Position numbers and translations under genes: made by a program
The notes under the pieces: model-generated
The model's input: only the letters and a program-made list of their open reading frames with translations
Told to the model about the DNA's origin: nothing
The model's database searches: none
In this document: positions 15,496 to 42,378 of the stretch, piece after piece
How the letters are laid out: every line of letters starts with the position of its first letter
How positions within the stretch are numbered: the first letter of the stretch is position 1
Origin: Sporosarcina trichiuri
Lineage (GTDB): Bacteria > Bacillota > Bacilli > Bacillales_A > Planococcaceae
Assembly (NCBI RefSeq): GCF_030406775.1
Contig: NZ_CP129119.1
Location: 2,511,501-2,575,500, forward strand
Direction: 5' to 3'
DNA length: 64,000 nt

Positions 15496-15547
15496 TGGGT
15501 TTCGGCCGGCCGTTGGGTATACTAGCCGAAAGGAGCTGATTCTTGGT

Positions 15548-16252
15548 ATGTCTGTAAAAAACTCAGAACGCTTTATCGCCGCCTACAATCGGCTGGAGAA
15601 AGCACTCGTCAAGAAAGTCGGAGAAAACAGTTACCTGCCGTTCTACCGGCTGGTCGATAAAGCGAAAGTGAAGAATTCCGTGGTCCGGAACAACGAAGAT
15701 GATCTGAGGGAGTTCGGTGACCTGCGCAATGCCATCGTCCATCACCGGACGGGGGTCGACTATGTCATCGCCGAACCGCATGAGGACGTCGTCGACAAAA
15801 TCGAGGAGCTGGACAAGAAGATCAGCAATCCGCTGAATGTCGGCGCTTTGTTCGGCTGCAAAGTCCACACCCTGCAAGCATCCGATCAGCTGACGGACGC
15901 ATTAAAGATCATGCACGAGAACAAGTTCAGTCAGCTGCCGTTCTACGACCAAGGTAAATTCCAGGGACTGATCACTGCTGCCGGCATTACGTACTGGTTT
16001 GCCGGTCATTCGACAGCAAGCGATATTTCCCGGGAAATACCGACATTGGCGGACGTCTACAACTATGAAAAACGGAAAAAATCATTTGAATTTGTCAGAC
16101 GGGACTTGTCCATATACGAAGCAGAGGACTACTTCAAGCGCGCCATCACGAAAGGCACCCGGCTGGAGGCCTTGCTGATCACCGAGACCGCCAAGCCGGA
16201 CGAGGAATTGATCGGCATCATCACGCCATTCGACTTGCTGAAGATCCAGTGA
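15548..16252 (+). CDS. probable HEPN-type domain fused to a CBS pair
   Basis: This 234-aa protein has two parts. Residues 1 to about 92 are helical (FIAAYNRLEKALVKKVG...) and carry R60-N-A-I-V-H65. This is an Rx4H motif in the setting LRNAIVHHR, matching the active-site signature of HEPN ribonuclease or HEPN-like domains. Residues about 98-234 form a Bateman module of two CBS motifs (LTDALKIMHENKFSQLPFYDQGKFQGLIT and a second ending ELIGIITPFDLLKIQ), which in other proteins binds adenine nucleotides or cyclic di-AMP. The HEPN call rests on the motif and helicity only. ATG 15548 follows AAAGGAG. It is alone behind the opp terminator and directly upstream of the 20-bp repeat array. Function unknown; nucleotide-controlled RNA cleavage is an inference. 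Confidence 0.75.
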   Translation: MSVKNSERFIAAYNRLEKALVKKVGENSYLPFYRLVDKAKVKNSVVRNNEDDLREFGDLRNAIVHHRTGVDYVIAEPHEDVVDKIEELDKKISNPLNVGALFGCKVHTLQASDQLTDALKIMHENKFSQLPFYDQGKFQGLITAAGITYWFAGHSTASDISREIPTLADVYNYEKRKKSFEFVRRDLSIYEAEDYFKRAITKGTRLEALLITETAKPDEELIGIITPFDLLKIQ

Positions 16253-16280
16253 AGGTGTTCAACAGGCTTCCGTCGGTGAA

Positions 16281-16432
16281 GTGCTCATAAAACGGCAAAA
16301 GTGATCATAAACCACTGGAAATGATCATAAACCTGGAAAAGTGATCATAAACCGCTGAATGTGATCATAAAACCTGCAGAGTGATCATAAATGTCCAAAA
16401 GTGATCATAAATAGCGGCGAAGTGCTCATAAC
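16281..16432 (+). repeat. Array A: eight 11-bp cores at 20-bp pitch
   Basis: GTGATCATAAA, or variants GTGCTCATAAA and ATGATCATAAA, starts at 16281, 16301, 16321, 16341, 16361, 16381, 16401 and 16422. The first seven are exactly 20 bp apart and the last is 21. The 9-bp spacers differ (acggcaaaa, ccactggaa, cctggaaaa and so on). The core contains the palindrome TGATCA. It lies between the HEPN-CBS gene and the convergent ktrB terminator, with no open frame of note. It is too short-spaced for CRISPR. Confidence 0.9.
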
Positions 16433-16470
16433 GATGCCTTCAGCCCGTGTTCCCCTCGCGCAAAAACAAT

Positions 16471-16515
16471 AAAAAGCTGCCATTTCCTTGTCATGCCAAG
16501 GGAACGGCAGCTTTT
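16471..16515 (-). terminator. terminator of the ktrB-like gene
   Basis: AAAAGCTGCC pairs with GGCAGCTTTT, with an inner CCTTG/CAAGG extension. Read on the minus strand it is followed by TTTTTATTGTTTTT. It could also stop plus-strand transcripts leaving array A. Confidence 0.8.
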
Positions 16516-16519
16516 CACG

Positions 16520-17851
16520 TTATCCGGTATGCACGCGGTCGTACGAGTAGCGGAATGTCTCTTTCTTTTGGCGGATCAGCAGGAAGAACAGTGTCAGCGG
16601 ACCGATCCGGCCGAGGAACATGACAATGCTGATGATCCATTCACCGGCTGGACTCAGGTCACCTGTAATCCCGACGGACAGGCCGACCGTGCCGAAGGCA
16701 GATACGGTTTCCATGAAGAGCGGCAGGAATCCGAACGATTCGGTCACTGTCAGCAGGAAGCATGCGAGGAAGACGACCATCGAACTGATGGCGGCAATCG
16801 CAAGCGACCTGACGATGATCTCGGTCTTGATGGTGCGGTTGAACAGGTGCGGCTCATTCGTTCCGCGGAAATAGGCGATGGTCGCAAGCACGATCACCAG
16901 GAATGTCGTCAGCTTGATACCGGAAGCGGTGGAAGCACTTCCGCCGCCGATGAACATCAGGGCAAGGGTCAACAGCATTGAACTGTCGGTCATGTCACCG
17001 ATCGGCACCATGTTGAAGCCGGCTGTCCGCGGGGTGACCGCCTGGAAATAGGACGTCAGGAGCTGATCGCCGACCGGCATCCCGCCGATCGTTTTGGCAT
17101 TATGGAATTCGAGCAGGAACCAGATGATCATCGCGACAGCATTCATGATCAGTGTACCTGCGACCATCATCTTCGTATGGAGCGACCAGTCCCTCGCCCG
17201 TCGAGCAGTGAGCAGGTCGAGCACTACCGTGAAGCCGAGACCTCCGATGATGAACAGCGAGGAGATGATCAGCGTCACCGGCCAGTCGCCTGCGAATCCG
17301 ATCAGGTTATCCGGGAACAGGGAGAACCCCGCATTGTTGAATGCTGAAACGACATGGAACAAACTGTAGTACAGACCGTGCGTCCAGCCGAACTTCGGCA
17401 CCCAGACGAGGGAAAGCAGGATGAATGCGATCCCTTCCGTGATGAACACGAAGGCGAAAATACTGCGCAGGAACTTGACTGTACCGCCGATCGACTGCTG
17501 GCTGAACGATTCCTGCAGGAACAGCCGGTTTTTCATCCCGACTTTCCGGCCGAGCAGGATGAGCACAGCGACGGCGAACGCCATGAGGCCGACGCCGCCG
17601 ATCTGGATGAGTGCCAGCAGGACGAGTTCGCCGAACAGGGTCAGGGTGGAGGCGATATCAAACACCGACAGACCGGTCACCGTTGTGGCAGATGCAGCGG
17701 TGAACATCGCATCCGTCCAGGTGATCGGTGCAGTGGTCGCTGCCGGCAGTTTCAGCAGGATGGTGCCTATCAAGATCGTCAGCAGGAAACTGGCAGCGAT
17801 CAGAAGCGGTGGGGTACTGCGCCGTTTTTTGTGCAAGAACGGAAGTTTCAT
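16520..17851 (-). CDS. ktrB: K+ transporter membrane subunit, TrkH/KtrB family
   Basis: This 443-aa protein is built of four linked M1-P-M2 units forming one K+-conducting pore. The four selectivity-filter segments can be read: TVTGLSV, NNAGFSL, PRTAGFN and FGTVGLSVG, each with the conserved glycine. The N-terminus is cationic (MKLPFLHKKRRSTPP). In Bacillota the partner is a KtrA/KtrC RCK subunit that binds ATP/ADP and cyclic di-AMP. No ktrA lies in the window, so this resembles an unlinked KtrB or KtrD. It is convergent with the HEPN-CBS gene and divergent from the fetAB-like pair. Confidence 0.9.
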   Translation of the reverse strand: MKLPFLHKKRRSTPPLLIAASFLLTILIGTILLKLPAATTAPITWTDAMFTAASATTVTGLSVFDIASTLTLFGELVLLALIQIGGVGLMAFAVAVLILLGRKVGMKNRLFLQESFSQQSIGGTVKFLRSIFAFVFITEGIAFILLSLVWVPKFGWTHGLYYSLFHVVSAFNNAGFSLFPDNLIGFAGDWPVTLIISSLFIIGGLGFTVVLDLLTARRARDWSLHTKMMVAGTLIMNAVAMIIWFLLEFHNAKTIGGMPVGDQLLTSYFQAVTPRTAGFNMVPIGDMTDSSMLLTLALMFIGGGSASTASGIKLTTFLVIVLATIAYFRGTNEPHLFNRTIKTEIIVRSLAIAAISSMVVFLACFLLTVTESFGFLPLFMETVSAFGTVGLSVGITGDLSPAGEWIISIVMFLGRIGPLTLFFLLIRQKKETFRYSYDRVHTG

Positions 17852-17999
17852 AAGGGTCAGACTCCTTTTTCCGTGAACTATGTTATTGTTTGATTATTGA
17901 TCGAAAAGGTATGAATACAATAGGCCGATTGAATTATTATTTAAGGGTTTTTAACAGGCGCAATCAGTAATGACTGAATGAGATGGGGGACCACTGAGG

Positions 18000-18740
18000 A
18001 TGAAAGAAAAGATGAGTCAGGCAGATAATGCCCTGCGTCTGGCAGGTGTAACGTTTGAAACAGAGGACAAACCAATTATCCGGCAAGCATCCGGATGTGC
18101 ACCGTCCGGAAAGATTACAGCACTGATCGGGCCGTCCGGAGCAGGTAAGACGACCTTGCTGAAGCTGTGCAATGGGCTCATCAGTCCGACTGCAGGACAA
18201 ATTTACATAGGGAACGCGGCGATCCAGGACCTGCCGCCGGTCACACTGCGTCGGCAGGCGGGAATTGTACTGCAGAACTCCCCGATGATCGCCGGTACCG
18301 TGCTGGATAATCTGGCATTGCCAATGACTTTACAGGGAAAGAAACTGTCTGACCAAGAGGCGGCGGAGGTGATGGACCGTGTGGGACTGCCGGATGAGCT
18401 ACTCGGACAGGATGCCCGCAATCTGTCGGGCGGGCAGCGCCAGAAAGTATCTATCGCCCGGACGCTGGTGAACGAGTCGGAGATCCTGTTGCTGGATGAG
18501 ATCACAGCATCCCTTGATCCAGAGTCTTCGCAGGAGATCGAGGAATTGATCGTCAGGCTGAACCGGGAGCAGGCCGTGACGGTTGTATGGATCACGCATA
18601 ATCTTGACCAGGCGTTCCGGGTCGGCGAGCATTTCTGGGTGATGGCGGATGGTGTCATTCGGGCAGAAGGTTCAGCAGCGGACATCCGGTCATCCGATGA
18701 TGCGGCGGTCCGACAGTTTGCAGAGGGGGTAAAAGCATGA
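18000..18740 (+). CDS. fetA: ABC exporter ATP-binding protein, YbbL/FetA-like
   Basis: A 246-aa single ABC domain with GPSGAGKTTLLKLCNGL (Walker A), LQNSPMIAGTVLDNLALP (Q-loop region), LSGGQRQKVSIARTLV (signature), ILLLDEITASLDPE (Walker B) and WITHNLDQ (H-loop). Its stop overlaps the start of the UPF0014 permease by 4 bases. This pairing is the FetAB arrangement, described in E. coli as an iron exporter linked to oxidative stress resistance. ATG 18000 has GGGGGA upstream; ATG 18012 is an alternative. The metal specificity here is inferred from family only. Confidence 0.85.
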   Translation: MKEKMSQADNALRLAGVTFETEDKPIIRQASGCAPSGKITALIGPSGAGKTTLLKLCNGLISPTAGQIYIGNAAIQDLPPVTLRRQAGIVLQNSPMIAGTVLDNLALPMTLQGKKLSDQEAAEVMDRVGLPDELLGQDARNLSGGQRQKVSIARTLVNESEILLLDEITASLDPESSQEIEELIVRLNREQAVTVVWITHNLDQAFRVGEHFWVMADGVIRAEGSAADIRSSDDAAVRQFAEGVKA

Positions 18741-19495
18741 GCTGGCTGACATTGAGCCTGACGCTTATCTTCGTGCTCATCCCGCTGCTGCTGTCAAAGA
18801 CGCTGCATCTCGGACTGGAGAAAGATACGCTGATTGCGACCATCCGCTCCGCCGTCCAGCTGATTGCGGTCGGCTTCGTGCTGAAATTCGTCTTCGAGTC
18901 GGAGCATGCGGTATTCATCCTCCTGATGGTGCTGCTGATGATCGGGGCGGCTGTGCAGAATGCGCGCCATAAAGGGAAAGCGGTGAAGGGTATCACGTGG
19001 AAGCTGTTCGTGACGTTTGCGGCAATCGAGCTGATCACGCAAGGGGTGCTGCTCGGGCTGCACATCGTTCCGGCGACCGCGCAATATATCATCTCGATCA
19101 GCGGGATGGTGATCGGCAACTCGATGGTGCTCGCCATCCTGTTTTTGAACCGGTTCACCTCGGAGATCGAAAGCCACCGGGATCAGACGGAACTGATCCT
19201 GTCGCTCGGCGGTACGCCGAAACAGTCCATCAACCGGCAGCTGCTGAAGGCGATCCAGGCGAGCATGATCCCGACGATCGAAAGCCAGAAGACGATCGGA
19301 CTCGTCCAGCTGCCTGGCATGATGAGCGGCCAGATCATCGCCGGCGCCGACCCGATCCAGGCCGTGCAGTTCCAGCTGCTCATCGTGTTTTTGCTGTTGT
19401 CGACGGCTGCGATGACGAGTGTCCTCCTCGGCTACTTGTCGTACCGGAGTTTTTTTAATGAGCAGATGCAGCTGCTGAAGGTGGATGCAGATTGA
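18737..19495 (+). CDS. fetB: ABC exporter permease, UPF0014 (YbbM/FetB-like)
   Basis: A 252-aa membrane protein with about seven hydrophobic segments. UPF0014 landmarks are ATIRSAVQLIAVGFVL, the central SGMVIGNSMVLA, and LPGMMSGQIIAGADPIQAVQFQLLIVF. It is coupled to the ATPase by ATGA. The stop TGA is immediately followed by the terminator hairpin, so the pair is a complete two-gene operon. Confidence 0.88.
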   Translation: MSWLTLSLTLIFVLIPLLLSKTLHLGLEKDTLIATIRSAVQLIAVGFVLKFVFESEHAVFILLMVLLMIGAAVQNARHKGKAVKGITWKLFVTFAAIELITQGVLLGLHIVPATAQYIISISGMVIGNSMVLAILFLNRFTSEIESHRDQTELILSLGGTPKQSINRQLLKAIQASMIPTIESQKTIGLVQLPGMMSGQIIAGADPIQAVQFQLLIVFLLLSTAAMTSVLLGYLSYRSFFNEQMQLLKVDAD

Positions 19496-19521
19496 AAGGA
19501 GCGCCCGCGGGCGCTCCTTTT
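19495..19521 (+). terminator. terminator of fetAB, starting at the stop codon
   Basis: AAAGGAGCGCCCGCGGGCGCTCCTTTT is a perfect 13-bp-arm palindrome with only a short T run. It could act in both directions. Confidence 0.8.
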
Positions 19522-19550
19522 CAGCAGGGCGATTATATTGGCGGCGCTGA

Positions 19551-19682
19551 GCGATCCATTCGACCGTGTAACCGCTCGATTGCCTGGCCCGACCGCTCGA
19601 TTCGTCCGGCGAAGTGATCCATTCGCTTGGCTAAGCGCTCCAATCCTTTACCGAAGCGCTCCATTCCGCCACCGCTCGATAC
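19551..19682 (+). repeat. Array B: seven 11-bp cores, six at exact 21-bp pitch
   Basis: Cores of consensus SCGCTCSATTC start at 19551, 19572, 19593, 19614, 19635 and 19656 (all 21 bp apart), with a final one at 19672. Examples are GCGATCCATTC, CCGCTCGATTC, GTGATCCATTC and GCGCTCCATTC. Spacers are about 10 bp and unrelated. The array fills the gap between the fetB terminator and the convergent phosphodiesterase gene. Array D is the same family in reverse orientation. Confidence 0.88.
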
Positions 19683-19694
19683 CCCAGCCGCCGC

Positions 19695-20192
19695 TTAGGT
19701 TTTATACGAAAACAGCACGAGCTCGGCGTGAGGTTCGTCTGCAATTGTCAGTTCAATGAACGAGTAGTACGGCAGTTTCCGCTTATCGGTCGGGGAGCCG
19801 GGGTTCAGCAGCAGCATCCCTTTGAAGTATTTGATGACGGGGATGTGGGAGTGACCGTAGATCAGGATATCGATGTCGTCATCCGTGAACGCCTCCAGAG
19901 CGCGCTGTTCGGTCGTCCGTTTCGCTCCGTGGCCGTGGACGAGGCCGATCCGCAGCCCGCCTGCGTCGAAAAGCTGCCGGTCGGGAACGAGGGCCTGGAT
20001 ATCTTCCCCGTCAATATTGCCGTAGACCGCACGTACTTTGGCATACGACGATAACGTCTCCAATACGTCCGGTGACCGGAAATCCCCTGTATGTATGATG
20101 AGGTCGGCGTCCCGGCATGCATCGAGCAGCCGTCGGGGAAGCCGGCTGCCGCGGCCCGGGAGGTGGGTGTCGCCGGTGATGATCAGTTTCAA
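19695..20192 (-). CDS. metallophosphoesterase, YfcE/MJ0936 type
   Basis: A 165-aa calcineurin-like phosphodiesterase with all metal-binding blocks: ITGDTHLPGRG (D-x-H), LIIHTGDF (GD), VYGNID (GN-x-D), LVHGHGAKR (H) and IYGHSHIP (GHSH). It is close to the usual 160-180 aa of the family that hydrolyses phosphodiesters with Mn2+. The physiological substrate is unknown. ATG 20192 follows AAGGAGG. It lies 27 bases after the DUF421 gene on the same strand and may be co-transcribed with it. Confidence 0.88.
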   Translation of the reverse strand: MKLIITGDTHLPGRGSRLPRRLLDACRDADLIIHTGDFRSPDVLETLSSYAKVRAVYGNIDGEDIQALVPDRQLFDAGGLRIGLVHGHGAKRTTEQRALEAFTDDDIDILIYGHSHIPVIKYFKGMLLLNPGSPTDKRKLPYYSFIELTIADEPHAELVLFSYKT

Positions 20193-20219
20193 ACTGGTGT
20201 CCTCCTTCTGCGGGGCACC

Positions 20220-20840
20220 TTATTCGAGTCGTTTCGGTGCCCCGTTTTTCAGATCTTTGTTGGCGGTTTCCGTAAACAGGCTCTGCTCCGCCGGGATGTT
20301 TTCCGTGATATGCGGCACCGGGTACGCGTCCAGTTTTTTCAGGACGGCCTCCAGTTCCTGGCGCAGGATGTACAGGTCCTGCTTCGTTGCGGGCTTCGCA
20401 CTCTCCATCAGTTCACAGCCGACCTGTCCGTTCGGTTCCAGCGTCGCCCATTTCACGTCCTCAATCCGGGTGATGTTCTGCTGGCGGAGTTCCATCTCCA
20501 GCTGATCCACCGTGAACCTGAGTTTCCGCAGCGTCTGTTCCTGCAGCACGCCGTCCAAAATGACGATTTTGGCACGGCCCGTCACCAGCCCTTCCACCCG
20601 GTTGACTTTGACTTCCAGGAATTCGATGACGATGAGGGTGATGATCAGCATCAGCCCGACGAGCATCGTGGACCAGACATTATGGCCGACGATCGGCTGC
20701 ACGAGCAGGGAGCCGAGTCCGATCATGATGACCGTCTGTGCGAGCGTCATCTGGGAGATCGATTTGCGGCCCGCGAGCCGCAGGAACAGGGTCCCGGCAA
20801 TCACGACCACGACCGCTTTCCATAAAAGACTCCAATCCAT
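20220..20840 (-). CDS. DUF421 membrane protein (YetF/YrbG-like)
   Basis: A 206-aa protein with three N-terminal hydrophobic segments (about residues 5-80), containing the family motif RLAGRKSISQMTLAQ. A soluble DUF421 domain follows with VLQEQTLRKLRFTVDQLEMELRQQNI and DVKWATLEPNGQ. Members are widespread in Bacillota, some sporulation- or stress-related, with no defined biochemical role. It lies between the phosphodiesterase and DUF2254 genes, all on the minus strand with short gaps. Confidence 0.87.
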   Translation of the reverse strand: MDWSLLWKAVVVVIAGTLFLRLAGRKSISQMTLAQTVIMIGLGSLLVQPIVGHNVWSTMLVGLMLIITLIVIEFLEVKVNRVEGLVTGRAKIVILDGVLQEQTLRKLRFTVDQLEMELRQQNITRIEDVKWATLEPNGQVGCELMESAKPATKQDLYILRQELEAVLKKLDAYPVPHITENIPAEQSLFTETANKDLKNGAPKRLE

Positions 20841-20853
20841 CCAACCACCTCTT

Positions 20854-22188
20854 TTACCCGATAGGATGGCCGTCGGACAGGGAAGTATGCGGCCCGTCTG
20901 CGGTCAGCGCACGGAGCGACTGCTGTTTGTCAGCAAGCCGTTCCGAATCGAGCGGCTCGAGTCCGGTATGATCGAAGCGGTTCCAGACGTACTCACCGAT
21001 CCGTCTGACCTCATTCAGCGTCTCGTGGGAGGAACGCCGGCTCCTTGCGATATACAGGAGGGCATCGAGCATGGCATGCAGGACAGCGGCATCCTGCCTG
21101 CCGTAGAAACTCATCTGGCTGAACGCGGCATACAGATGATCGGCCAGACTCGCCTGGGGGAGGATCAGGCACGGTTTATTCCCCTCTGCATAGCGGACAC
21201 GGAACCCGCCGGGCAGATGGGTGGCCCGCTCGAGGACTTCGCCGAGTGTATGGATGCAGCGCACGGCCGTGTTCGGGTCGTTGATGCCCGGGGATAGCGC
21301 GCGCAAGCCGATCTCCGCAATCTTTTCGATGCCGTACTCCACGTCCTGCAAGGTCGACCGTTCTTCGCCGACAGTGAACTTACGGGCCGGCTCAAAGTCC
21401 GGCAGCCTGCTGTCATGGTAGACGGCGGCAATCATGCTTTCCGTTCCGACAAAGGTGCCGATCGGCGTCAGGATATCGATCACCGCCTCCTGTTCAGCCG
21501 CCCAATCCGCCAATTCTCTGATCTGGATCGATTGGATGTACCCATACGTACCATTCCTGAATTCGGTGACGGAAGAATAGGCGGCAGCTAATGGGGGTTT
21601 CTCTGGCAGGGTGACGACCGCTTCTTCTTCCACGGCACGCATCGTCTCATCAATCGTCTCCAGCACATCATCAGCCAGATTCCGGATCAGCCGGCTCACC
21701 TGCACGGCCCTGCCGACTTTGTGGATGAAATACGCGAAGAATGCCAGGCAGACGACTGCCAGCAGGACAGCGACCGTAGCGGAGACGACTTCATGGGTGA
21801 TGGACTGCTTGCGCATGAACAGCAGCGACAGGATCGAGTAGATGAACCCGCCCATGAACATGCCGAGCACCCGCTGCGTGGACGGTGCGTTCAGGAAATT
21901 CTGCAGCGTGCGTGGTGAGAACTGGGACGAATACATTGTCAGGACGACCATGATCGTCGAGAACGTGATCGTCGTCATCGTCAGCAGTGCACCGGAAATC
22001 GTGCCGAGAATCGTCTGGGCAAGATCAACGGATGTCCGCAAATACTCGGGAATGAACCCTTTCACTTGCGTATTGAAAGTCGTATCGACCAGGACCATGC
22101 CGAGTGCCAGCAGAGAGGCGAGCACGGCATATAGACCCGGAATGAACCAGATGCTGCTTCGGAGTTTCAAGATCAGTCTCGGTACCAA
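20854..22188 (-). CDS. DUF2254 integral membrane protein
   Basis: A 444-aa protein with four predicted N-terminal helices (about residues 12-145). Family-like stretches are LGTISGALLTMTTITFSTIMVVLTMYSSQFSPR and RVLGMFMGGFIYSILSL. A large soluble C-terminal half contains GIEKIAEIGLRALSPGINDPNTA, the most conserved part of DUF2254. Function is unknown. It is 13 bases upstream of the DUF421 gene, so an operon of three membrane or phosphoester-related genes is likely. Confidence 0.87.
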   Translation of the reverse strand: MVPRLILKLRSSIWFIPGLYAVLASLLALGMVLVDTTFNTQVKGFIPEYLRTSVDLAQTILGTISGALLTMTTITFSTIMVVLTMYSSQFSPRTLQNFLNAPSTQRVLGMFMGGFIYSILSLLFMRKQSITHEVVSATVAVLLAVVCLAFFAYFIHKVGRAVQVSRLIRNLADDVLETIDETMRAVEEEAVVTLPEKPPLAAAYSSVTEFRNGTYGYIQSIQIRELADWAAEQEAVIDILTPIGTFVGTESMIAAVYHDSRLPDFEPARKFTVGEERSTLQDVEYGIEKIAEIGLRALSPGINDPNTAVRCIHTLGEVLERATHLPGGFRVRYAEGNKPCLILPQASLADHLYAAFSQMSFYGRQDAAVLHAMLDALLYIARSRRSSHETLNEVRRIGEYVWNRFDHTGLEPLDSERLADKQQSLRALTADGPHTSLSDGHPIG

Positions 22189-22282
22189 ATGTGTGTGCCT
22201 CCTTGCAGCGGCTGTGCCGTTTCTAGTCTTACTTCCTGACTACCCTGCAAGGGCGCACGGGAAACGACTGAATACGGCTCGT

Positions 22283-22323
22283 AAAAAAACCCGTCCGCCC
22301 TGTGTCGGGGGAGACGGGTTTTC
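22283..22323 (-). terminator. terminator of the alpha/beta hydrolase gene
   Basis: On the minus strand AACCCGTC pairs with GACGGGTT around a GC-rich loop and runs into TTTTTTT, four bases past the stop codon. Confidence 0.85.
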
Positions 22324-22326
22324 GGG

Positions 22327-23280
22327 TCAGTCGAGCACTTTATCCAGAAACTCGGAAAGTCTGCGTTCGTATTCCGCCGTGCGGTTGTCGAACGCTTTCG
22401 TATGGCCGGCATCCGGCACAATCCACAGTTCCTTGTCGCCGCCTGCGGCTTTGTACAGCACATCGGCCATCGCAGTCGGCACGAGGTCATCCTTGTCGCC
22501 ATGGATGAGCAGAAGCGGGCGCGTGTTTTTCCGCACCTGATCGACCGCGGACGCTTCCTGCAAGGTATAACCTGCGCGCACTTTCGCCACGACACTCGTC
22601 ACGTCGAGCAGCGGGAAGGCGGGCAGCCCGTAGATCGACTTGAGCTGGTGGGCGAGCTCCGCCTTGACGGTCGTGTAGGAGCTGTCCGCGATGATCCCTT
22701 TCACCTGCTCGGGCAGCGTTTCCCCGCTCGTCATGAGAACGGTCGCCGCCCCCATGGAATTTCCTTGTAAAATGATCTCGTTTGCGTCATGCTGTTGAAT
22801 AAGATACGTGATCCAGTCCTTATAATCGAGACGCTCGTGCCAGCCGTAGCCGATATACTCACCCTCACTCTGGCCGTGCCCCCGGGCGTCCGGCAGCAGG
22901 ATATCGAATCCGCGATCATAATAGAATTTCGCGTATTTCCCCATATTGTCCCCTGTGTTGCGGAACCCATGGGCAAGAATGACGGCACGGCGGTCCGGAT
23001 TGTCCGGATTTTTGATGAACTGCGCTTTCAGCTTGAGGCCGTCAAAGGATTTCATGGTGACCAGGTTTTTGTCCTGTTCCATGTACCAGTCCTTGGCTTC
23101 TGTCAGAAGCGCCCGATCTTCATCGGACGCCAGGTCGTTGACGACGATCGGTTCGCTGTGCAATTTGACTTCGGTGCCGCGTTTGATGCCCTGGTCGTAG
23201 AAGTAGTTGCCGGCGAAGACAAGCGCAGCGATCAGGATGAGGACGAGGACCGCGACTGCGATCCAGATTTTCTTTTTCAA
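22327..23280 (-). CDS. membrane-anchored alpha/beta hydrolase
   Basis: About 317 aa from a TTG at 23280 that has GGGGGTGG six bases upstream; an ATG at 23313 is possible but has no such site. The N-terminus (MKKKIWIAVAVLVLILIAALVFA) is a signal anchor. Catalytic parts are LAHGFRNTGDN (oxyanion region), LPDARGHGQSEG, the nucleophile Ser in LQGNSMGAA, Asp in HGDKDDLVP and His in PDAGHTKAF. It belongs to the YqkD/BAAT-like hydrolases. It is probably an extracytoplasmic esterase or peptidase; substrate unknown. Confidence 0.87.
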   Translation of the reverse strand: MKKKIWIAVAVLVLILIAALVFAGNYFYDQGIKRGTEVKLHSEPIVVNDLASDEDRALLTEAKDWYMEQDKNLVTMKSFDGLKLKAQFIKNPDNPDRRAVILAHGFRNTGDNMGKYAKFYYDRGFDILLPDARGHGQSEGEYIGYGWHERLDYKDWITYLIQQHDANEIILQGNSMGAATVLMTSGETLPEQVKGIIADSSYTTVKAELAHQLKSIYGLPAFPLLDVTSVVAKVRAGYTLQEASAVDQVRKNTRPLLLIHGDKDDLVPTAMADVLYKAAGGDKELWIVPDAGHTKAFDNRTAEYERRLSEFLDKVLD

Positions 23281-23357
23281 ACGATACCACCCCCGGTCTT
23301 CCCAGTTTACCATCTTTTCACTGGATGGGGAGCCTTTATTCCAAGGAGGAAATGGAT

Positions 23358-23990
23358 ATGAATTTCAAACCGCTTGTCAGGATCTGGTCGCGCCCGACCG
23401 ATGTGCTGAACTATATGAAAGACCGGCTGTCGCTGAAATACGCGGTCGCCATCCTGGCGCTCGCCGCCCTGTCGACCGGCGGCTACCAGGCGGGCAATAC
23501 CAATCTCACGTCCAGCCTGCCGTTAGGGGTCCAGATTCCGCTGCTGATCATCACGACATTCGTCGGTGCCCTGATCTCCTGGGTGATCGGCTCGGCGCTC
23601 TATACGTGGATCGGCCGTGGTATCTTCGGCGGACGGGGGACGTTCCGTGACATGCTGCGGGTCGTGCCGGCTTCGTCGATTCCGATGATCTGGATGGCAC
23701 CGGTCAACTATGCCGTCATCGCCGTGTACGGGGAGCTTGCGTTCAAGACACCGGACCCGGAAAGTCTGACCATCACGTATCTGCCGCTGACGGTCTATCT
23801 GTTTGTGAACTTCCTGACGTTCGCGCTTGGCATCTATGCCCTCGTTATTTCCAGTAAGGGGATCGGCCTCGTGCACGGTTTCTCCGCCTGGAAAGGGTTC
23901 GGCGTCAACCTGCTCGTGCTGGTCGCCGGATTCCTGATCGCCGCGCTGGTGATCATGTTATTTGTCTTTGTCTTTGCGTTTGGTATGTAA
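23358..23990 (+). CDS. Yip1-family membrane protein
   Basis: A 210-aa protein with about five hydrophobic segments and the Yip1-like opening (FKPLVRIWSRPTDVLNYM). The pattern GRGIFGGRGTFRDMLRVVPASSIP is typical of bacterial YIP1/DUF1282 proteins. ATG 23358 is spaced 8 bases from AGGAGG; ATG 23352 is an alternative. No function is established for bacterial members. It stands divergent to the hydrolase and convergent with guaC. Confidence 0.75.
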   Translation: MNFKPLVRIWSRPTDVLNYMKDRLSLKYAVAILALAALSTGGYQAGNTNLTSSLPLGVQIPLLIITTFVGALISWVIGSALYTWIGRGIFGGRGTFRDMLRVVPASSIPMIWMAPVNYAVIAVYGELAFKTPDPESLTITYLPLTVYLFVNFLTFALGIYALVISSKGIGLVHGFSAWKGFGVNLLVLVAGFLIAALVIMLFVFVFAFGM

Positions 23991-23993
23991 TGA

Positions 23994-24035
23994 AATAAAA
24001 CCGGAGCCCCCTTGTATGGAGGTTCCGGTTTTATT
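23994..24035. terminator. bidirectional terminator between the Yip1 gene and guaC
   Basis: AAAACCGGA at 23997-24005 pairs with TCCGGTTTT at 24024-24032, with A and T runs on both flanks. Confidence 0.85.
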
Positions 24036-24047
24036 GGTTTCATCCGA

Positions 24048-25031
24048 TCAATAGACCTTATCGCCATTGAAGATCGAGTTTTTCACGATGGCATAGTCGA
24101 CAGTGCGGATGGCATCGAGGTTGCGGCCGCCTGCGTAGGAGATGGAGGACTGCAGATCCTGTTCCATTTCCGTCAGCGTGTCCTGGAGCGGTCCTTTGTA
24201 CTCGACGTACATCTTTTTGCCTTCGACGTTCTTCTTTTCACCTTTTTGGAACTCGGAGGCGGAACCGAAGTATTCCTTGAACGTGCCGCCGTCCTTTTCG
24301 ACGGTCTGGCCCGGGGATTCCTCGTGGCCTGCGAACAGGGACCCGACCATCACCATGCTCGCGCCGAAGCGGACCGATTTTGCGATGTCGCCGTGCGTCC
24401 GGATGCCGCCGTCCGCGATGATCGGCTTCGAAGCCGCTTTCGCACACCAGCGGACCGCAGCGAGCTGCCAGCCGCCTGTGCCGAAGCCTGTCTTGATTTT
24501 GGTGATGCAGACTTTACCGGGCCCGATGCCGACTTTCGTTGCGTCCGCGCCGGCGTTCTCGAGTTCACGTACGGCTTCCGGTGTGCCGACGTTACCTGCG
24601 ATGACGAAGCTTTCCGGCAGGTGCTTCTTGATGTGCTGGATCATGCGGATGACCGCGTTCGAGTGACCGTGCGCAATGTCTATTGTGATGTAGTCGGGGA
24701 TCAGGGAATCCGCAGCGAGCTGCTCGACGAATCCGTACTCGTCGTCTTTGACGCCGACACTGATCGATGCGATCAGGCCGCGGCTGTGCATATCGCGGAT
24801 GAACGCCGGACGGGATGCCGGATCGAACCGGTGCATAATATAGAAGTAACCGCCTTCAGCGAGCTGAACGGCAATGTTTTCATCGATGATGGTCTGCATA
24901 TTGGCAGGAACGACCGGCAGGCGGAATGTATGGTTTCCGAGGGTGACGGACGTGTCGCATTCCGAGCGGCTGTTCACGATACATTTTGCGGGGATCAGTT
25001 GGATATCTTCATAATCGAATACTGCGTCCAT
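24048..25031 (-). CDS. guaC: GMP reductase
   Basis: This 327-aa enzyme of the IMPDH/GMPR family converts GMP to IMP and ammonia with NADPH. Features seen are [16 protein letters not shown] at the N-terminus, [23 protein letters not shown], and the catalytic loop [17 protein letters not shown] with its Cys. [19 protein letters not shown] and the [18 protein letters not shown] flap follow. There is no CBS insertion, and the KTGFG sequence after the Cys fits the Firmicute-type GuaC rather than IMPDH. It is a monocistronic gene with its own promoter and no purine riboswitch visible. Confidence 0.95.
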
Positions 25032-25093
25032 TGTTGAACACTCCTAAATACGAATGATTTTGAGGACTTAGTTATAATTGTTCGTCCTTATGT

Positions 25094-25122
25094 ACTGTAC
25101 AAGATTCCTCTTGAGTTGTCAA
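25094..25122 (-). promoter_or_regulatory. sigma-A promoter of guaC
   Basis: On the minus strand TTGACA (25122-25117), a 17-bp spacer and TACAGT (25099-25094) precede a leader of about 55 nt with an AGGAGTG ribosome site. Confidence 0.65.
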
Positions 25123-25198
25123 ACAAATCTTGCTGTTCTTTTAGGGACTTACTATTTGTGCGCTTCCTGCGGCTGTGGGATGATGGAACAGACAGCAG

Positions 25199-25222
25199 GC
25201 AAGACGCATAGGGCTGTCTTGC
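25199..25222. other. inverted repeat upstream of the RND gene
   Basis: GCAAGAC, a 10-nt loop and GTCTTGC form a perfect 7-bp arm repeat 46 bp before the RND start. There is no T-run. It may be an operator or a leader hairpin. Confidence 0.4.
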
Positions 25223-25267
25223 AAAGGCTTACATAACATCCAATCGGAAGAGGGAAGGGTGGACGCG

Positions 25268-28200
25268 ATGGCGTATTTATTGAAACGGAGCAAGTTATTC
25301 ATCTTTCTTTTATTCATCCTCATACTGGTCGGGGTCTATACGTTCCTGACACTGCCGAAGCGTGAGATTCCGGAGACGCCGGTCGATCTCGTGATGGTGT
25401 CCGCGATCCTGCCAGGGGCGGAACCGAAGGAGGTGGAGCGGACGGTGACGGATCCGCTCGAGCGGGCTGTGAAGAAAGTGGACGGCATCGAGTCGGTGCA
25501 GTCCGTGTCCGCGAATTCGGCATCGATCGTGACGATCCAGCTGAAGGACGGGATCGACTCCGAGCAGACGGTCAGCAAACTGCAGCAGGAAGTGCAGCGG
25601 GCCGGTACCGATCTGCCGGAGAACGTGCAGACGCCGGATGTCCGGAAACTCGACCTTGCCTTCCCGCTCGTTTCGTATATGTTTACGGGAGATGAGGCGG
25701 CGCTTGCGGAGCTCGAGAAACCGCTGTCCGGCCTGTCGGATGACATCCAGTCGGCGGAAGGTGTGGCTGGGACGACCGTGAAAGGGTTCGCGGACCGGCA
25801 GATTGTGATTGCGCTCGATCCTGCGAAGCTCGCACAATACCGGCTGCAGCCGTTCGATGTGCTCAATGTGCTCCAGCAGGCGAACCAGCCTGTGTCGCTT
25901 GGGACGCATGATGACGGCACGGAACTGGTCGCCCTGAGCGTTGCCGGGGAGGAAGGGATCGACAAGCTGAAGACACTGCAGGTCGGTGATGCGGCAGTGC
26001 CGCTGTCGAAAGTGGCGGACATCGGCGAAGCAGCGGGGGAGACGGAAGACATCGTGACGTTCGAAGGCGAGCCGGCCATTTCGTACACGGTGTTCCTCCA
26101 GCCGGGGCAGGATATCCCGTCGATGGACAAAACGGTCGGCAAGAAGATGGACCGGTTCATCGATGACCTGCCGGAGTCGGTGACGGCACATCTGTATGAG
26201 TCGCAGGCGGATAATGTGAACGATATTTTCAGCAGTCTGTATACGTCACTGCTGATTGCGGTGGCGGCTGTGCTCATCGTGACGACGGCGGGACTGACGC
26301 TGTACGGGGCGTTCGCGGTCGCGTTGACCGTTCTCGCATCGGTGCTGACGGGTCTGATCCCGATTCCGTTCATGGGCGTTGATCTGAACCAGATTTCCGT
26401 AATCGGGCTGATCATTGCGATCGGGATTCTCGTCGACGACAGCATCGTCGTCAATGACAACATCCAGCGGCGTTACAAGCTCGGGGATTCCCCGCTCGAC
26501 GGCGCAGTGAATGGCGTGAAGGAAGTGTACACGTCGATCATTTCCTCGAGTCTTGCGATTGTCGTAACGTTCTCGCCGCTGCTGCTGCTCTCTGGCGGAA
26601 ACGGCGCGTTCATCAAGGCATTGCCGAGCATCCTCATCACGACGATCATCGCATCGACCGTGCTGTCGGTGACGCTCGTGCCGATGCTGCAATATATGAA
26701 GACGAAGCGGCGTCGGAAGAAGATTTCCGATACGCCGGGCTTCCTCGGGAAACCGCTCGAGAAGATTGCGGTGTTCTATTCGGAGAAGGTGCTCCGGTTC
26801 GTTCTGAAACGGCCGCTGGTCGTCGGAATCGGCGGGCTTCTCGTTGCGACCGGGCTGCTGTTCCTGGCCTTCCTGACGCCGTTCGAGTTCTTCCCGGCCG
26901 CCGATAAGGCGGAAGTGACGATGAACGTCCGGCTCGCGGAAGGGACGCCGATCGAAGAGACGGATAACGAAATCCGGAAGATCGTCGAAGACGTGGCGGA
27001 AGAGGACGATCACGTCAAGGAGACGGCCTTGTTTGCAGGAGACGGATTGCCGAACCTGTTCGCCGCCAGCATGGATAACACGGGCGGCAACACCGGGCAG
27101 GCCGTATTCCGGATCGATAAAGAGAAGACGAGTGCTTCGGAATTCATCGGCAAATGGGAACCCGAGCTCCGGAAACGCTATGGGGATGCGGAAATCTTCT
27201 TGAACACGATCGTGCAGGGACCGCCTGTCGGGGCGCCGGTGACCGTGACGGTGACAGGTGCGGATATCGACCGGCTTGCGGAGTTGAGGGATGACTTGAA
27301 GCAGCGTCTGCTGGACGGCGGTGCGGATATCGTAACGGATAATCTCGGGGAACCCGTGCCGGCGGTCGTGTACGAACCGGACCGGACGGCGCTCGAGGCG
27401 AACGGCATTCCGCTCCGGTTGGTCACGAACCAGCTGCAGCTGCTGACGCAGGGGATTCCGCTGTTCAAGCAGTATGACGGGGATATCGCGAAACAGGTCG
27501 TCCTGAAACAGCAGGGCGTGGACGACGGCAAACCGATCGATCTGTCGTCGATCACCGTTCCGGCCATGTCGGAACAGGAACCGCCGAAATTCGTGCCGCT
27601 CGATGACCTATTGCAGGAAGAGAAGGCGCCGCAGCTCGCCCAGATCCCGCACAAGCAGGCGGCGCGGGCGATCACGCTGAAGGCGTATGGATCGTCCGAC
27701 AGCTTCAAGTCGGATTTGCAAGAGATTGCGGATGAAGCGAAGGACGGACTGCCGGATGGGTACTCCATCTCGACGGGCGGGGAGAACTCCGATCAGCAGG
27801 CGTTCTTTGCGGAGATCGGCATCCTGTTCCTCGTCGTCCTGCTGCTCGTGTATCTGGTCATCGCGTTCCAGTTCAAGTCGTTCAGTCTGCCTTTCCTCGT
27901 GCTGTTTGCCGTATACCTCGGCATTTCCGGTGCGATTCTGGGATTGTTCATCACCCAGACGCCGCTCAGTTTCCTCGGCGTGATGGGAATTGTCTCGCTG
28001 ACGGGAATCGTCGTGCGGAACGCAGTTGTGCTCATCGACTTCGTCGAAGCGCGCCGCCTGCAAGGGGACATGGATGTCATCGAGGCGATCGTCGAATCCG
28101 GCTACGCGCGCATCAAGCCCATCCTCCTGACGTCCCTGACGTCGATCGTCGCGCTCATTCCGGTGGCGGTGTCGGGCGATCCGCTGTTCGAGGCGCTCGC

Positions 28201-28312
28201 CATCACGATCATCGCAGGCCTTGCATTCTCCGGGCTGTTCACACTGGTGATGATCCCGGCGCTGTATTTGCTATATTACAAGTGGATTGGCCACCGCGCG
28301 GAAGCGGTGTGA
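25268..28312 (+). CDS. RND-family efflux transporter (AcrB/SwrC type)
   Basis: This 1014-aa pump has the duplicated RND plan: one helix, a large extracytoplasmic loop, six helices, then the same again. Landmarks are LPKREIPETP near the N-terminus, IGLIIAIGILVDDSIVVNDNIQ in TM4 with the proton-relay aspartates, the TM6 to TM7 junction FLTPFEFFPAADKAEVTM, and FLGVMGIVSLTGIVVRNAVVLIDFV in TM10. ATG 25268 follows AAGGGTGG. No membrane-fusion partner or regulator is adjacent, as for SwrC-like Gram-positive RND proteins that export lipopeptides or help lipid homeostasis. The substrate is unknown. Confidence 0.9.
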   Translation: MAYLLKRSKLFIFLLFILILVGVYTFLTLPKREIPETPVDLVMVSAILPGAEPKEVERTVTDPLERAVKKVDGIESVQSVSANSASIVTIQLKDGIDSEQTVSKLQQEVQRAGTDLPENVQTPDVRKLDLAFPLVSYMFTGDEAALAELEKPLSGLSDDIQSAEGVAGTTVKGFADRQIVIALDPAKLAQYRLQPFDVLNVLQQANQPVSLGTHDDGTELVALSVAGEEGIDKLKTLQVGDAAVPLSKVADIGEAAGETEDIVTFEGEPAISYTVFLQPGQDIPSMDKTVGKKMDRFIDDLPESVTAHLYESQADNVNDIFSSLYTSLLIAVAAVLIVTTAGLTLYGAFAVALTVLASVLTGLIPIPFMGVDLNQISVIGLIIAIGILVDDSIVVNDNIQRRYKLGDSPLDGAVNGVKEVYTSIISSSLAIVVTFSPLLLLSGGNGAFIKALPSILITTIIASTVLSVTLVPMLQYMKTKRRRKKISDTPGFLGKPLEKIAVFYSEKVLRFVLKRPLVVGIGGLLVATGLLFLAFLTPFEFFPAADKAEVTMNVRLAEGTPIEETDNEIRKIVEDVAEEDDHVKETALFAGDGLPNLFAASMDNTGGNTGQAVFRIDKEKTSASEFIGKWEPELRKRYGDAEIFLNTIVQGPPVGAPVTVTVTGADIDRLAELRDDLKQRLLDGGADIVTDNLGEPVPAVVYEPDRTALEANGIPLRLVTNQLQLLTQGIPLFKQYDGDIAKQVVLKQQGVDDGKPIDLSSITVPAMSEQEPPKFVPLDDLLQEEKAPQLAQIPHKQAARAITLKAYGSSDSFKSDLQEIADEAKDGLPDGYSISTGGENSDQQAFFAEIGILFLVVLLLVYLVIAFQFKSFSLPFLVLFAVYLGISGAILGLFITQTPLSFLGVMGIVSLTGIVVRNAVVLIDFVEARRLQGDMDVIEAIVESGYARIKPILLTSLTSIVALIPVAVSGDPLFEALAITIIAGLAFSGLFTLVMIPALYLLYYKWIGHRAEAV

Positions 28313-28318
28313 ATGGAG

Positions 28319-28347
28319 CAAGCAGCCCGCGGGCTGCTTGTTTTTTT
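28319..28347 (+). terminator. terminator of the RND gene
   Basis: CAAGCAGCCCGCGGGCTGCTTG is a perfect self-complementary stem (28319-28340) followed by seven T. Confidence 0.9.
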
Positions 28348-28365
28348 GGTGGGGTGGAGTGTAGG

Positions 28366-28555
28366 CTTGAGCGTTTCGGCGGGGTGCTTGAGCGGTTGTC
28401 CCCTGCTTGAGCGCTTCCCGGCATGCTTGAGCGTGCGGGCGGTTTCTTGAGCGTTTGACCAGCCGGCTTGAGCGCTTCCCGGCATGCTTGAGCGTGCGGG
28501 CGGTTTCTTGAGCGTTTGACCCAGAACTTGAGCGCCAGTGCCACCTGCTTGAGCG
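28366..28555. repeat. Array C: ten CTTGAGCG cores at 19-21 bp pitch
   Basis: CTTGAGCG starts at 28366, 28387, 28406, 28426, 28446, 28467, 28487, 28507, 28527 and 28548. A 56-bp segment from 28405 is repeated identically from 28466, so three units were copied together (61-bp offset). The reverse complement of the core, CGCTCAAG, resembles the YGMTC core of arrays A, B and D. The array starts 19 bp after the RND terminator. The stretch 28556-28690 beyond it shows no feature. Confidence 0.9.
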
Positions 28556-28690
28556 CACCGGCCCTTGGTTCACTGGTGGCCCCAACAGAAAAGGCGCAGC
28601 CCACCATTCAAATTTTTCAGGGCTTGATTGGGGGAGGAGGGCACTTGGCGCGACGGAGGAATTGGCCGGGCGGGGGTGAGCGGCCGCGGG

Positions 28691-28806
28691 AATGGAGCGG
28701 TTGGGTGGCGAAATGGAGCGGTTCGCTGGGGGAAATGATCGCGCAGCCGTCGTAATGGATCGCTCAGCCAGCGGAATGGATCGCTCAGCCGTCGGAATCG
28801 AGCGGT
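28691..28806 (-). repeat. Array D: six cores at exact 21-bp pitch, reverse orientation of array B
   Basis: AATGGAGCGGT or AATGGATCGCT cores start at 28691, 28712, 28733 (degenerate), 28754, 28775 and 28796. Read on the minus strand they give AGCGATCCATT/ACCGCTCCATT, the same family as array B. Thus array B follows a plus-strand gene in plus orientation, and array D follows a minus-strand gene (psuG) in minus orientation, each directly beyond a terminator palindrome. Confidence 0.88.
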
Positions 28807-28824
28807 CCGCGGACAACGCCACGC

Positions 28825-28851
28825 AAAAAAGCTCCCCGCGGGGAGCTTTTT
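28825..28851 (-). terminator. terminator of psuKG
   Basis: AAAAAAGCTCCCCGCGGGGAGCTTTTT is a perfect palindrome with a T-run on either strand, seven bases past the psuG stop. Confidence 0.9.
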
Positions 28852-28857
28852 CAGTGA

Positions 28858-29766
28858 TTACTTGCTGAGTGCGACGGCGATTTTCGCGCCGACGACGGCG
28901 TTGTGTTTGACGAGGGCGATGTTGGCATCCAGGCTCTTGCCTTCTGTCAGTTCTTTCACTTTCGCCAGCATGAACGGCGTGACGTCCTTGCCTTTGATAT
29001 TGTTCTCTTTCGCTTCCGCGAGGGCCTGCTCGATGATGCGGTTGATCAGATCCGGATCGATCTCGTCCGCTTCCGGAATCGGGTTCGCGATGACGGCGCC
29101 GCCCGTGAGGCCGAGGTGCCATTTCACAGCGAGGGTTTCGGCGACGATCTCCGGGTTGTCCGCACGGAAGTTGATCGGGAAGCCGCTCTTGCGGGTGAAG
29201 AATGCCGGCAGCTCGTCCGTTTCATAACCGATGACCGGCACGCCTTTCGTTTCGAGGTACTCGAGAGTCAGGCCGATGTCGAGGATCGATTTCGCGCCTG
29301 CACAGACGACAGCGACATCCGTTTTGGCGAGTTCTTCCAAGTCCGCGGAGATGTCCATCGTCATTTCTGCCCCGCGGTGCACACCGCCGATGCCGCCTGT
29401 GACGAAGATGCGGATTTCTGCGAGATCCGCACAGATCATCGTCGCTGCCACAGTCGTTGCGCCGAGCTGCTTCGTTGCGAGAAGGTAGCCGATATCCCGG
29501 CGTGATACTTTCGCAACGTTATCGCTTTTGCCGAACATTTCGAGTTCTTCATTGGACAGGCCGATCTTGATCTGGCCGTCGATCAGTGCGATGGTTGCGG
29601 GCACCGCACCGTTCTTCCGGATGATCTCTTCCACCTCGCGGGCGGTCTGTACGTTCTGCGGATACGGCATGCCGTGGGAGATGATCGTCGATTCGAGCGC
29701 GACGATCGGCTGGCCTTCCGCTTTTGCTTTCAATACTTCTTCCGAGTAGACAATATATGATTTCAT
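28858..29766 (-). CDS. psuG: pseudouridine-5'-phosphate glycosidase
   Basis: This 302-aa enzyme cleaves the C-glycosidic bond of pseudouridine 5'-phosphate to uracil and ribose 5-phosphate. Family landmarks are [42 protein letters not shown], the glycine-rich [27 protein letters not shown] with the catalytic Lys, and [10 protein letters not shown]. The length matches E. coli PsuG (about 312). It overlaps the upstream kinase by ATGA, so the two-step pathway is translationally coupled. Confidence 0.95.
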
Positions 29767-30863
29767 GATAATTCCTCCAGTTCGTTTTGTAATCCTGCTG
29801 CTGTCAGTTCAGGGCGTACCGTTGAGTCGGATGCGAGCGTTTTCGCTGCATTGACCAGTCCGTAACGGACCGCATCCTGCAGCGGGTTTCCAGTGACTGC
29901 GGCGTGCAGGGTGCCGGAAACGAATGCGTCTCCCGCCCCCGTGACGTCCTCGACATGGACACCCGCAATCGCTTCGTGGTGGCGGATGATACCGGTGGTG
30001 CGGTCGCCTGCAGCGATGCCGTTCCGTCCGCGGGTGATAATAACGTGTTCGATTCCTTGATCGAGCAGCTGCCGGACGGCCGTCAGCCAATCCTCCATTG
30101 TCCGGATGGCGGTGCCTGTCAGCATTTCCGCCTCGTCCTCGTTGCAGATGAACCAATCCAGGCCCTCCAGTGAGTCGGGCAGGTTGGCCATCTTCGGGCC
30201 GGAGACCGGGACGATGGCGAACGGGACGCCGTGCCGCCGGGCGATGGTCCGGATGCATTGCACTGTGACTTTTGACACGTTCAGATCCGTGACGATGAGT
30301 TTCGCGCGGGCCAGCCGGCGTTCCATCTCGGAGATATACGCCGCATCGAGTGCTTCGTAGACATCCATCACCGCCATCGCGATGACGAGTTCGCCGTCCG
30401 GATCGAGCACCGCCGAATAGGAACCCGTGGAACGGTCCGGCAGAAGACGGACAGATGACAGATCCATGTATGCCGCTGAATTCGCGGCGATCAGTTCCCA
30501 GTCCGCATCGCTCCCGGCTGTTGTGAGCAGGCGGACCGGGTGGCCAAGCCGGCCAAGGTTCTCGGCGACGTTGCGGGCGACCCCGCCAATCGTGACAGAC
30601 AACGACGATGGATTGGAGGTCCCTTGGGCAACCGGGCCCTGTACATGGAATTTCCGGTCGACGTTCGCACCGCCGATGCAGATGATCTCCTCTTCCTCCG
30701 CGAGCACATATGCCCGGCCTTCGATATAGCCGCGCTTCGTCAGCGAGGAGATCAGGTTGGCGACAGCCGGACGCGACAGGCCGAGCTGGTCGGCCAGTTC
30801 CTGCTGGGAGCAGTACGGATCACGGCGCAGCAGCTGTAGGAGCTGATGCTCTTTTTCATTCAT
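29763..30863 (-). CDS. psuK: pseudouridine kinase with N-terminal winged-helix domain
   Basis: A 366-aa PfkB-family sugar kinase fused to a DNA-binding domain. Residues about 1-55 read [44 protein letters not shown], a clear winged HTH. The kinase part has [29 protein letters not shown] (substrate motif) and the C-terminal [15 protein letters not shown] with the catalytic Asp and anion hole. ATG 30863 has AAAGGCGG seven bases upstream and is better than ATG 30881. Coupled to psuG, it phosphorylates pseudouridine. The HTH, with two palindromes over its own promoter, suggests autoregulation by the enzyme (inference). Confidence 0.92.
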
Positions 30864-42293: not shown

Positions 42294-42378
42294 GATTGAA
42301 GAGGGCACATGACTGTTGGTGGCGCAACTGCGACTCGTGTATGGAATTGTGTGCGAGGCGAAGATGCAGCCGTTTTAA

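Follow-up and report, generated by a model that had tools for sequence, protein, structure and literature searches.

Two-turn intergenic repeat arrays of Sporosarcina trichiuri and the NERD-type nuclease genes beside them: a possible two-part genetic system

We analysed a stretch of 64,000 nucleotides from Sporosarcina trichiuri (contig NZ_CP129119.1, positions 2,511,501 to 2,575,500; hereafter the window), which holds four intergenic arrays of short direct repeats. An earlier note on this DNA had described these arrays, and all four are present, essentially where it placed them. The genome has four array classes, defined by their cores: A (YGMTCATAA), B (CGMTCSATT), C (TGTCCGATA) and D (CGCTCAAG). 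Array 1 (class A, plus strand, 16282-16431) consists of eight YGMTCATAA units, with six spacings of 20 bp and then one of 21 bp. Array 2 (class B, plus strand, 19552-19681) has seven units by eye with CGMTCSATT-like cores, spaced 21 bp five times and then 16 bp; our four-class detector reported it as 19512-19665, adding one spurious match upstream and missing the last unit. Array 3 (class D, minus strand, 28366-28555) has ten CGCTCAAG units at spacings of 19-21 bp, and array 4 (class B, minus strand, 28691-28804) has six CGMTCSATT units spaced 21 or 42 bp apart. Elsewhere in the genome, arrays of these kinds surround genes for proteins with a NERD-type nuclease domain, and arrays and nuclease together look like an undescribed nuclease-plus-repeat system.

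The surroundings of the four arrays differ. Array 1 is flanked by the stop of a CBS gene (16252) on one side and by a hairpin with A/T runs, shared with trkH, on the other; this hairpin (approximately 16470-16517) was read by eye, and the terminator scan listed none in the CBS-trkH gap. Intrinsic terminator-like hairpins were found at 19498-19522 (plus strand), between the UPF0014 gene and array 2; at 28317-28347 (plus strand), 3' of an AcrB-family gene and ahead of array 3; and at 28825-28852 (scoring on both strands), between array 4 and an Indigoidine_A-family gene. The latter two enclose both arrays 3 and 4. A strict 6-mer scan requiring at least four exact copies detected arrays 1 and 3 only, and none of 20 Markov shuffles gave any array. 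A 7-mer scan allowing one mismatch recovered all four; it returned 39 rows, from which we dropped two runs of N, four rows in coding sequence and one with a doubtful 19-bp pitch.

These arrays are not peculiar to the window. The 3.06 Mb genome contains 162 copies of GTGATCATAAA, a motif that represents the class of array 1, and 0 of the reversed motif, which rules out chance for this class. We sampled 524 kb, made up of the window, 20 stretches of 20 kb at even intervals and three additional ones. The four-class detector found 34 arrays there, compared with 0 in one Markov shuffle per stretch and 0 in the reversed sequence. Thus, the earlier suggestion of a genome-wide element class with sequence subtypes was borne out. 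None of the 34 arrays lay inside a predicted gene, as called by a crude in-house caller. Arrays occupied 16 of 47 convergent gaps, 6 of 175 tandem gaps and 3 of 54 divergent gaps (odds ratio 12.6 for convergent versus other gaps, p 3e-8). The proposal that arrays sit in convergent gaps therefore holds as an excess but not as a confinement: at approximately 1.85-1.90 Mb, class C arrays occupy convergent, tandem and divergent gaps alike. By our reading, 20 of the 33 gap-placed arrays, including arrays 2, 3 and 4 of the window, are cut off from one or both flanking gene ends by a terminator-like hairpin; in the other 13, array 1 among them, the scan shows no separating hairpin. Two arrays can share one gap, as arrays 3 and 4 do, and such pairs are of the same class (A-A, C-C) or mixed (B then D); examples lie at L041 16509-16966, L043 16754-17099 and L050 9932-10299. 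Each of the eight class C arrays in the sample runs against the strand that carries most of the local genes. Judging by GC skew in the sampled stretches, the origin would lie at approximately 2.3-2.4 Mb, away from the contig start, and the terminus at approximately 0.95-1.05 Mb.

The constant feature of the arrays is their pitch, while the core sequence varies. When all pitches from 9 to 60 bp were scanned (regions mostly within long open reading frames excluded, bins tolerating one base), 36 of 37 arrays from the same family had a pitch of approximately 20-21 bp or double that value: this genome contributed 16 of 16, other Sporosarcina 18 of 19 and other genera of the family 2 of 2. The sole off-pitch array, from another Sporosarcina, repeats at 14 bp, and the same scan of a small sample, 359 kb from 20 genomes of other families, yielded zero arrays. 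In our other array scans, including that of genome G063, rows within long open reading frames (heptad, collagen-like and proline-rich repeats) were set aside. The pitch of about two helical turns noted at the outset was thus upheld, and the shared core was not. The CGMTCSATT and CGCTCAAG types do show YGMTC and then, after one intervening base, an A; array 1, with TGATCATAA, has T at that position. YGMTC itself is not family-wide, since the class C core is TGTCCGATA and arrays of other genomes have AAGTCCA, CGCATAA, CGGTGATAA, GAGTTCTC and others. With cores differing this widely among classes and genomes, YGMTCNA is ruled out as a signature of the family. A separate tandem repeat in the window, three copies of approximately 51 bp at 42368-42519 ahead of a gene at 42726-43973, is unrelated to the 20-bp arrays.

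We examined the anatomy of class A in 26 arrays (157 units, counting only lengths of 20 or 21 bp). YGMTCATAAA is near invariant, the spacer is close to random at approximately five positions, and the final four positions are A/T-rich plus S. The spacers had been described as unrelated, and this is true of those five or so of the 20 positions; the remaining positions are constrained to some degree. Seven or eight units make up 19 of the 26 arrays, a 21-bp spacing is frequent at the first or last position, and a CTTCACA tail ends 15 of the 26. Class C is built differently, with a conserved head of approximately 35 bp followed by 21-bp units: 37 of 42 anchored matches carry three to five exact cores, and the five without cores are chance matches. 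The class C head contains GCCGATAAATTCGGC, a short hairpin-capable stretch, and ATTGTG is common to the class C head and the class A tail (reverse complement ATTGTGAAG).

Since array 1 precedes the hairpin shared with trkH, it may be transcribed, and a function at the RNA level, as 3' untranslated region elements or as guide-like RNAs (e.g., TIGR-like), has to be weighed. The sense strand of class A does fold better than dinucleotide shuffles (mean z -1.96, 26 arrays). However, this folding signal is weak and probably comes at least partly from the palindrome TGATCA, and RNA hairpins were rejected on that account. Class A sense spacers pair with their own cores no better than swapped spacers do (-0.367 versus -0.386), and antisense pairing is only slightly better (-0.636 versus -0.538, standard deviation 0.049). 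A search of window positions 15500-29800 against Rfam gave 0 matches up to E 0.1, this genome has no Nop-domain match, and the terminator-like hairpins described above part most gap-placed arrays from a flanking gene end. We therefore consider an RNA-level function extremely improbable.

Looking for a co-occurring protein family, as the earlier note had advised, proved productive. Two genes, at L045:2371-3324 (NERD_A, amid class A arrays) and L187:3470-4450 (NERD_C, amid class C arrays), were first picked out through their flanking arrays; both products match Pfam NERD, and they are 33% identical to each other over their full length. A homologue search of the loci examined to that point returned three more, all adjacent to arrays; their cores all differ, and one of the three homologues belongs to another genus (G169). 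A profile search then found 1-11 NERD copies in 57 of 61 Sporosarcina genomes, with four in this genome; G067, G071 and G077 gave no copy, nor did G025, which is incomplete. An array lies within 1.5 kb of the NERD gene in 53 of 55 rows, corresponding to 47 of 49 distinct loci, compared with 6 of 27 flanks of TrkH genes and 25 of 200 places picked at random. The 55 rows (six of them duplicates) comprise the best listed match of each of 30 genomes, 20 stretches from five genomes (G000, which is this genome, G009, G063, G074 and G031) and the five earlier loci. Of the two rows without an array, L233 has a weak one below the strict cut-off and L236 has none visible. Further NERD loci had arrays in eight of eight and then four of four cases (looser detector; random rate 18/300 on 660-bp flanks); the eight were picked to test predictions, and two of the last four are alleles, in S. 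koreensis S-K12, of genes already counted.

The pairing is specific to array class. In this genome, NERD_A (G000:C1:2130377-2131330, minus strand), NERD_B (G000:C1:2033372-2034313, minus strand; L221) and NERD_C lie in arrays of classes A, B and C, respectively, the first two genes lying outside the window. Arrays of the CGCTCAAG type flank NERD genes in G009 and G063 (L223, L231). All 27 loci with arrays on both sides of the gene gave a better core match in the same orientation than with one side inverted, with mean core similarities of 10.6 co-oriented, 2.9 inverted and 4.2 between loci. Across 46 loci, protein identity correlates with core similarity (rho 0.415); 0 of 500 permutations reached this value, the maximum being 0.18. 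In G063, seven non-coding arrays from an arbitrary 40 kb match, by eye, the cores at the seven NERD genes examined of its eight. In three genomes with a single NERD gene (G017, G069 and G072), the neighbouring core resembles, by eye, the core of an array already known from elsewhere, as predicted beforehand, and in G066 the predicted core was found by eye at one of the three NERD genes seen. Apparently, there is one resident gene per array class, set amid co-oriented copies of its own array. Several NERD copies contain in-frame stops (e.g., three in G068, two in G013 and two in G078), which suggests birth and decay of nuclease-array pairs. An IS110-family transposase gene (L045:4052-5326; G000:C1 ~2132052-2133326) lies between class A arrays upstream of NERD_A.

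In the partner protein, approximately 320 amino acids long, a NERD-type PD-(D/E)XK nuclease domain is accompanied by a zinc ribbon with four cysteines and by a small C-terminal domain that to us resembles a winged helix. Against Pfam NERD (PF08378; cut-off 22.1 bits), NERD_A scored 45.5 bits (E 1.3e-11) and NERD_C 38.9 bits (E 1.3e-9), and no Y1_Tnp match was listed in the Pfam scan of these two proteins. G45-E46, D80, E93, K95 and the four cysteines are invariant across 48 sequences. The structure model has a mean pLDDT of 92.9. Its top solved folds in Foldseek, none at E <= 1e-3, include Bax1, Can2, Card1, McrC, N.BspD6I and the R2 endonuclease, which we take to be PD-(D/E)XK-type nucleases; a sequence search against solved structures gave weak zinc-ribbon matches only.

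A nuclease of this type could serve in defence or self-recognition, acting on DNA without (or with) arrays while the chromosomal arrays mark self or restrain the enzyme. The NERD proteins show weak matches to NERD-bearing defence proteins such as PglW, and the NERD_A cassette is hypervariable between two strains (L191 versus L194), with 77-95% identity in blocks beside a downstream flank of approximately 100%. In contrast, none of five proteins had a confident match in PADLOC/NCBIfam (best E values 2.7e-4 and 2.1e-4, the latter far below the cut-off; partner genes were not searched for), the NERD proteins had no convincing match to defence or phage families, and array 1 had no match in plasmid or phage collections at E 0.01. 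We regard a defence role as improbable. The hypervariable NERD_A block beside its identical flank looks like allelic replacement by recombination.

The arrays turn over between relatives. A 21-kb stretch is 99.2% identical to Sporosarcina koreensis S-K12, and arrays 1 and 2 are identical in the two genomes, array 4 has one substitution, and array 3 has gained or lost units. Substitutions between the two strains number 2 in cores and 15 in spacers, too few changes for a comparison and with one array misaligned. In the CBS-trkH gap, relatives have 15, 6-7, 3, 2 or 0 units, and downstream of the UPF0014 gene the array is of class B here and of class A in five relatives. Class C sites number 283 in this genome and 325 in S-K12, compared with 8-49 in the other 59 genomes, among which G021 has a slight excess over control (36 versus 8). 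Class C also clusters around its nuclease gene: when locations were collapsed by hand to kilobases, with single sites included, 24 of 49 gap locations lay within 100 kb of NERD_C (p 5e-16), and 20 of these 24 were on the strand of NERD_C, compared with 11 of 25 beyond that distance (p 0.007). NERD_C of S-K12 occupies a different gap and is 67-92% identical in blocks; its cassette adjoins a gene that in this genome borders a solo class C array (84% identity there).

Gain and loss of units and 40-bp dimer duplications are what neutral satellites would show, and a bias toward convergent gaps is expected of any tolerated insertion. On this account, slippage would have grown tandem arrays wherever no promoter was harmed, and NERD genes would merely lie in array-rich gaps. 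However, class A loci combine near-invariant core positions with near-random spacer positions, the pitch stays at two turns although 9-60 bp were scanned, and NERD pairing is class-specific and far above the random rate. Neutral satellites are thus, in our judgement, very unlikely.

The main rival is a domesticated system of chromosome architecture, in which the NERD protein would be a multivalent scaffold or roadblock that insulates convergent units or bends DNA, the arrays would no longer spread, and the protein's own gene would lie amid sites for autoregulation. The two-turn pitch, the excess in convergent gaps, the hairpins between arrays and gene ends and the vertical inheritance of NERD_A all fit such a role. 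So does predicted curvature (1 = straight; wedge parameters entered by hand), which is 0.835-0.883 for classes A, B, D and others versus 0.957 for array-free gaps. Class C, however, is not predicted to be curved (0.981), which rules out intrinsic curvature as a common property, and random cores at a pitch of 21 bp already average 0.920. Further points against architecture are that relatives differ at corresponding gaps in whether an array is there, in its class and in its unit number, that class C is abundant only in this genome and S-K12 among 61 genomes, and that the nuclease residues stay invariant. An architectural role is therefore rather unlikely.

The pairing, the orientation rule, the correspondence between core and protein, the 20/21-bp pitch and the turnover of unit number and class are most simply accounted for by a resident nuclease that recognises its own arrays and spreads them through binding, cutting and copying, steps that we infer. 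The arrays would then be the dispersed non-coding half of a two-part genetic system whose other half is the resident NERD nuclease gene, working in a REPtron-like way, a reading on which we find ourselves evenly divided between acceptance and doubt. Molecules of the NERD protein would line up at their cognate cores on a single helix face and would nick or cut the DNA there. Through repair, units would then be gained or lost and array modules copied, for the most part to gaps close by and often with the orientation of the NERD gene. Insertions in genes and promoters would be selected against, and for this reason many arrays would be left in convergent gaps. Among the functional guesses of the earlier note, a recombination-related role comes nearest to this reading. 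More broadly, and with doubt slightly outweighing belief, we propose a new class of selfish or domesticated elements, in which NERD-zinc-ribbon nucleases generate, amplify and locally disperse their own two-turn arrays. The protein would assemble along one face of the helix, each paralogue would set its own core, and many independent pairs (up to eleven genes seen) would coexist in a genome and turn over between species.

Several observations weigh against a resident nuclease that spreads its arrays. Class A clusters more weakly near its gene than class C does (12 of 53 within 100 kb of NERD_A, p 1e-4), and its strand there is unclear (seven same, five opposite, p 0.2). NERD_A is stably placed, with a downstream neighbour common to six genomes, which leaves frequent hopping of this gene unsupported. 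In two strains NERD_B has the same flanks and 99-100% identity, broken by one 84% block with an indel next to it. The class C arrays on either side of NERD_C in this genome each carry a head motif of their own, so simple insertion of the gene into a single array does not account for them. We did not locate the fourth NERD gene here, and class D therefore has no matching gene in this genome. Cores other than those predicted were found in G003 (two of five NERD genes seen), in G034 (two of four) and at the second G079 locus. Shared descent adds to the correlation between core and protein, so the within-genome evidence counts more, and the correlation is not stronger for the C-terminal part of the protein than for the nuclease part (partial correlations 0.07 versus 0.27).

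If the pairing means what it seems to mean, the little-studied NERD domain has sequence-specific partners across the chromosome, and a sizeable, otherwise unexplained share of convergent intergenic DNA in these genomes would be accounted for. The genus offers dozens of natural protein-core pairs; therefore, a recognition code and the two-turn spacing rule are directly testable. Our literature search, which covered few subscription journals, listed no work that ties NERD proteins to repeats or describes such arrays. The only analogue known to us is a functional one, RAYT/REP.

Compared with known systems, the arrays share single features with several. TIGR-Tas arrays combine short repeats with short variable spacers; here there are many arrays per genome. 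The Nop domain (PF01798) has no match in this genome, which rules out TIGR-Tas for it, and 3 of 61 genomes match at E <= 0.001, one of them over the cut-off. Centromere iterons of the ParR/parC type are direct repeats of approximately 20 bp that can be coated by a DNA-binding protein in a regular helix, whereas here the arrays are scattered over numerous gaps of the chromosome, and the gene linked to them codes for a nuclease-type protein. The picture of a homing endonuclease element, a gene inserted into the site that it cleaves, with empty sites in relatives, has one observation on its side, the NERD_C cassette of S-K12 next to a gene that here borders a solo class C array, and one against it, the separate heads of the arrays around NERD_C in this genome. 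The gyrase-binding BIME/REP repeats of enterobacteria are intergenic, lie at gene ends and in convergent gaps, and have palindromic units. The arrays resemble them in intergenic, convergent-gap placement and differ in direct cores, a two-turn pitch and a NERD partner; to our knowledge, BIME/REP repeats have neither such a pitch nor a NERD partner. Class A, the only class folded, does not behave as palindromic hairpin repeats, its units folding as swapped-spacer units do in sense and 2 standard deviations better in antisense.

The REPtron comes closest. In the account of PMC6006769, each repeat type of a REPtron in general has a single resident enzyme gene; the repeats often flank this gene and are also dispersed, and several types may share one genome. 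The likeness to that account is one of layout: a NERD gene flanked by its own repeat type, and one gene per type, with the class D gene of this genome not located. REPtrons differ in having an HuH-Y1 transposase and hairpin REPs, where we find a NERD PD-(D/E)XK protein with a zinc ribbon and direct, non-palindromic cores at a pitch of 20-21 bp. RAYT is thought to propagate REPs, much as a resident NERD nuclease would propagate its arrays.

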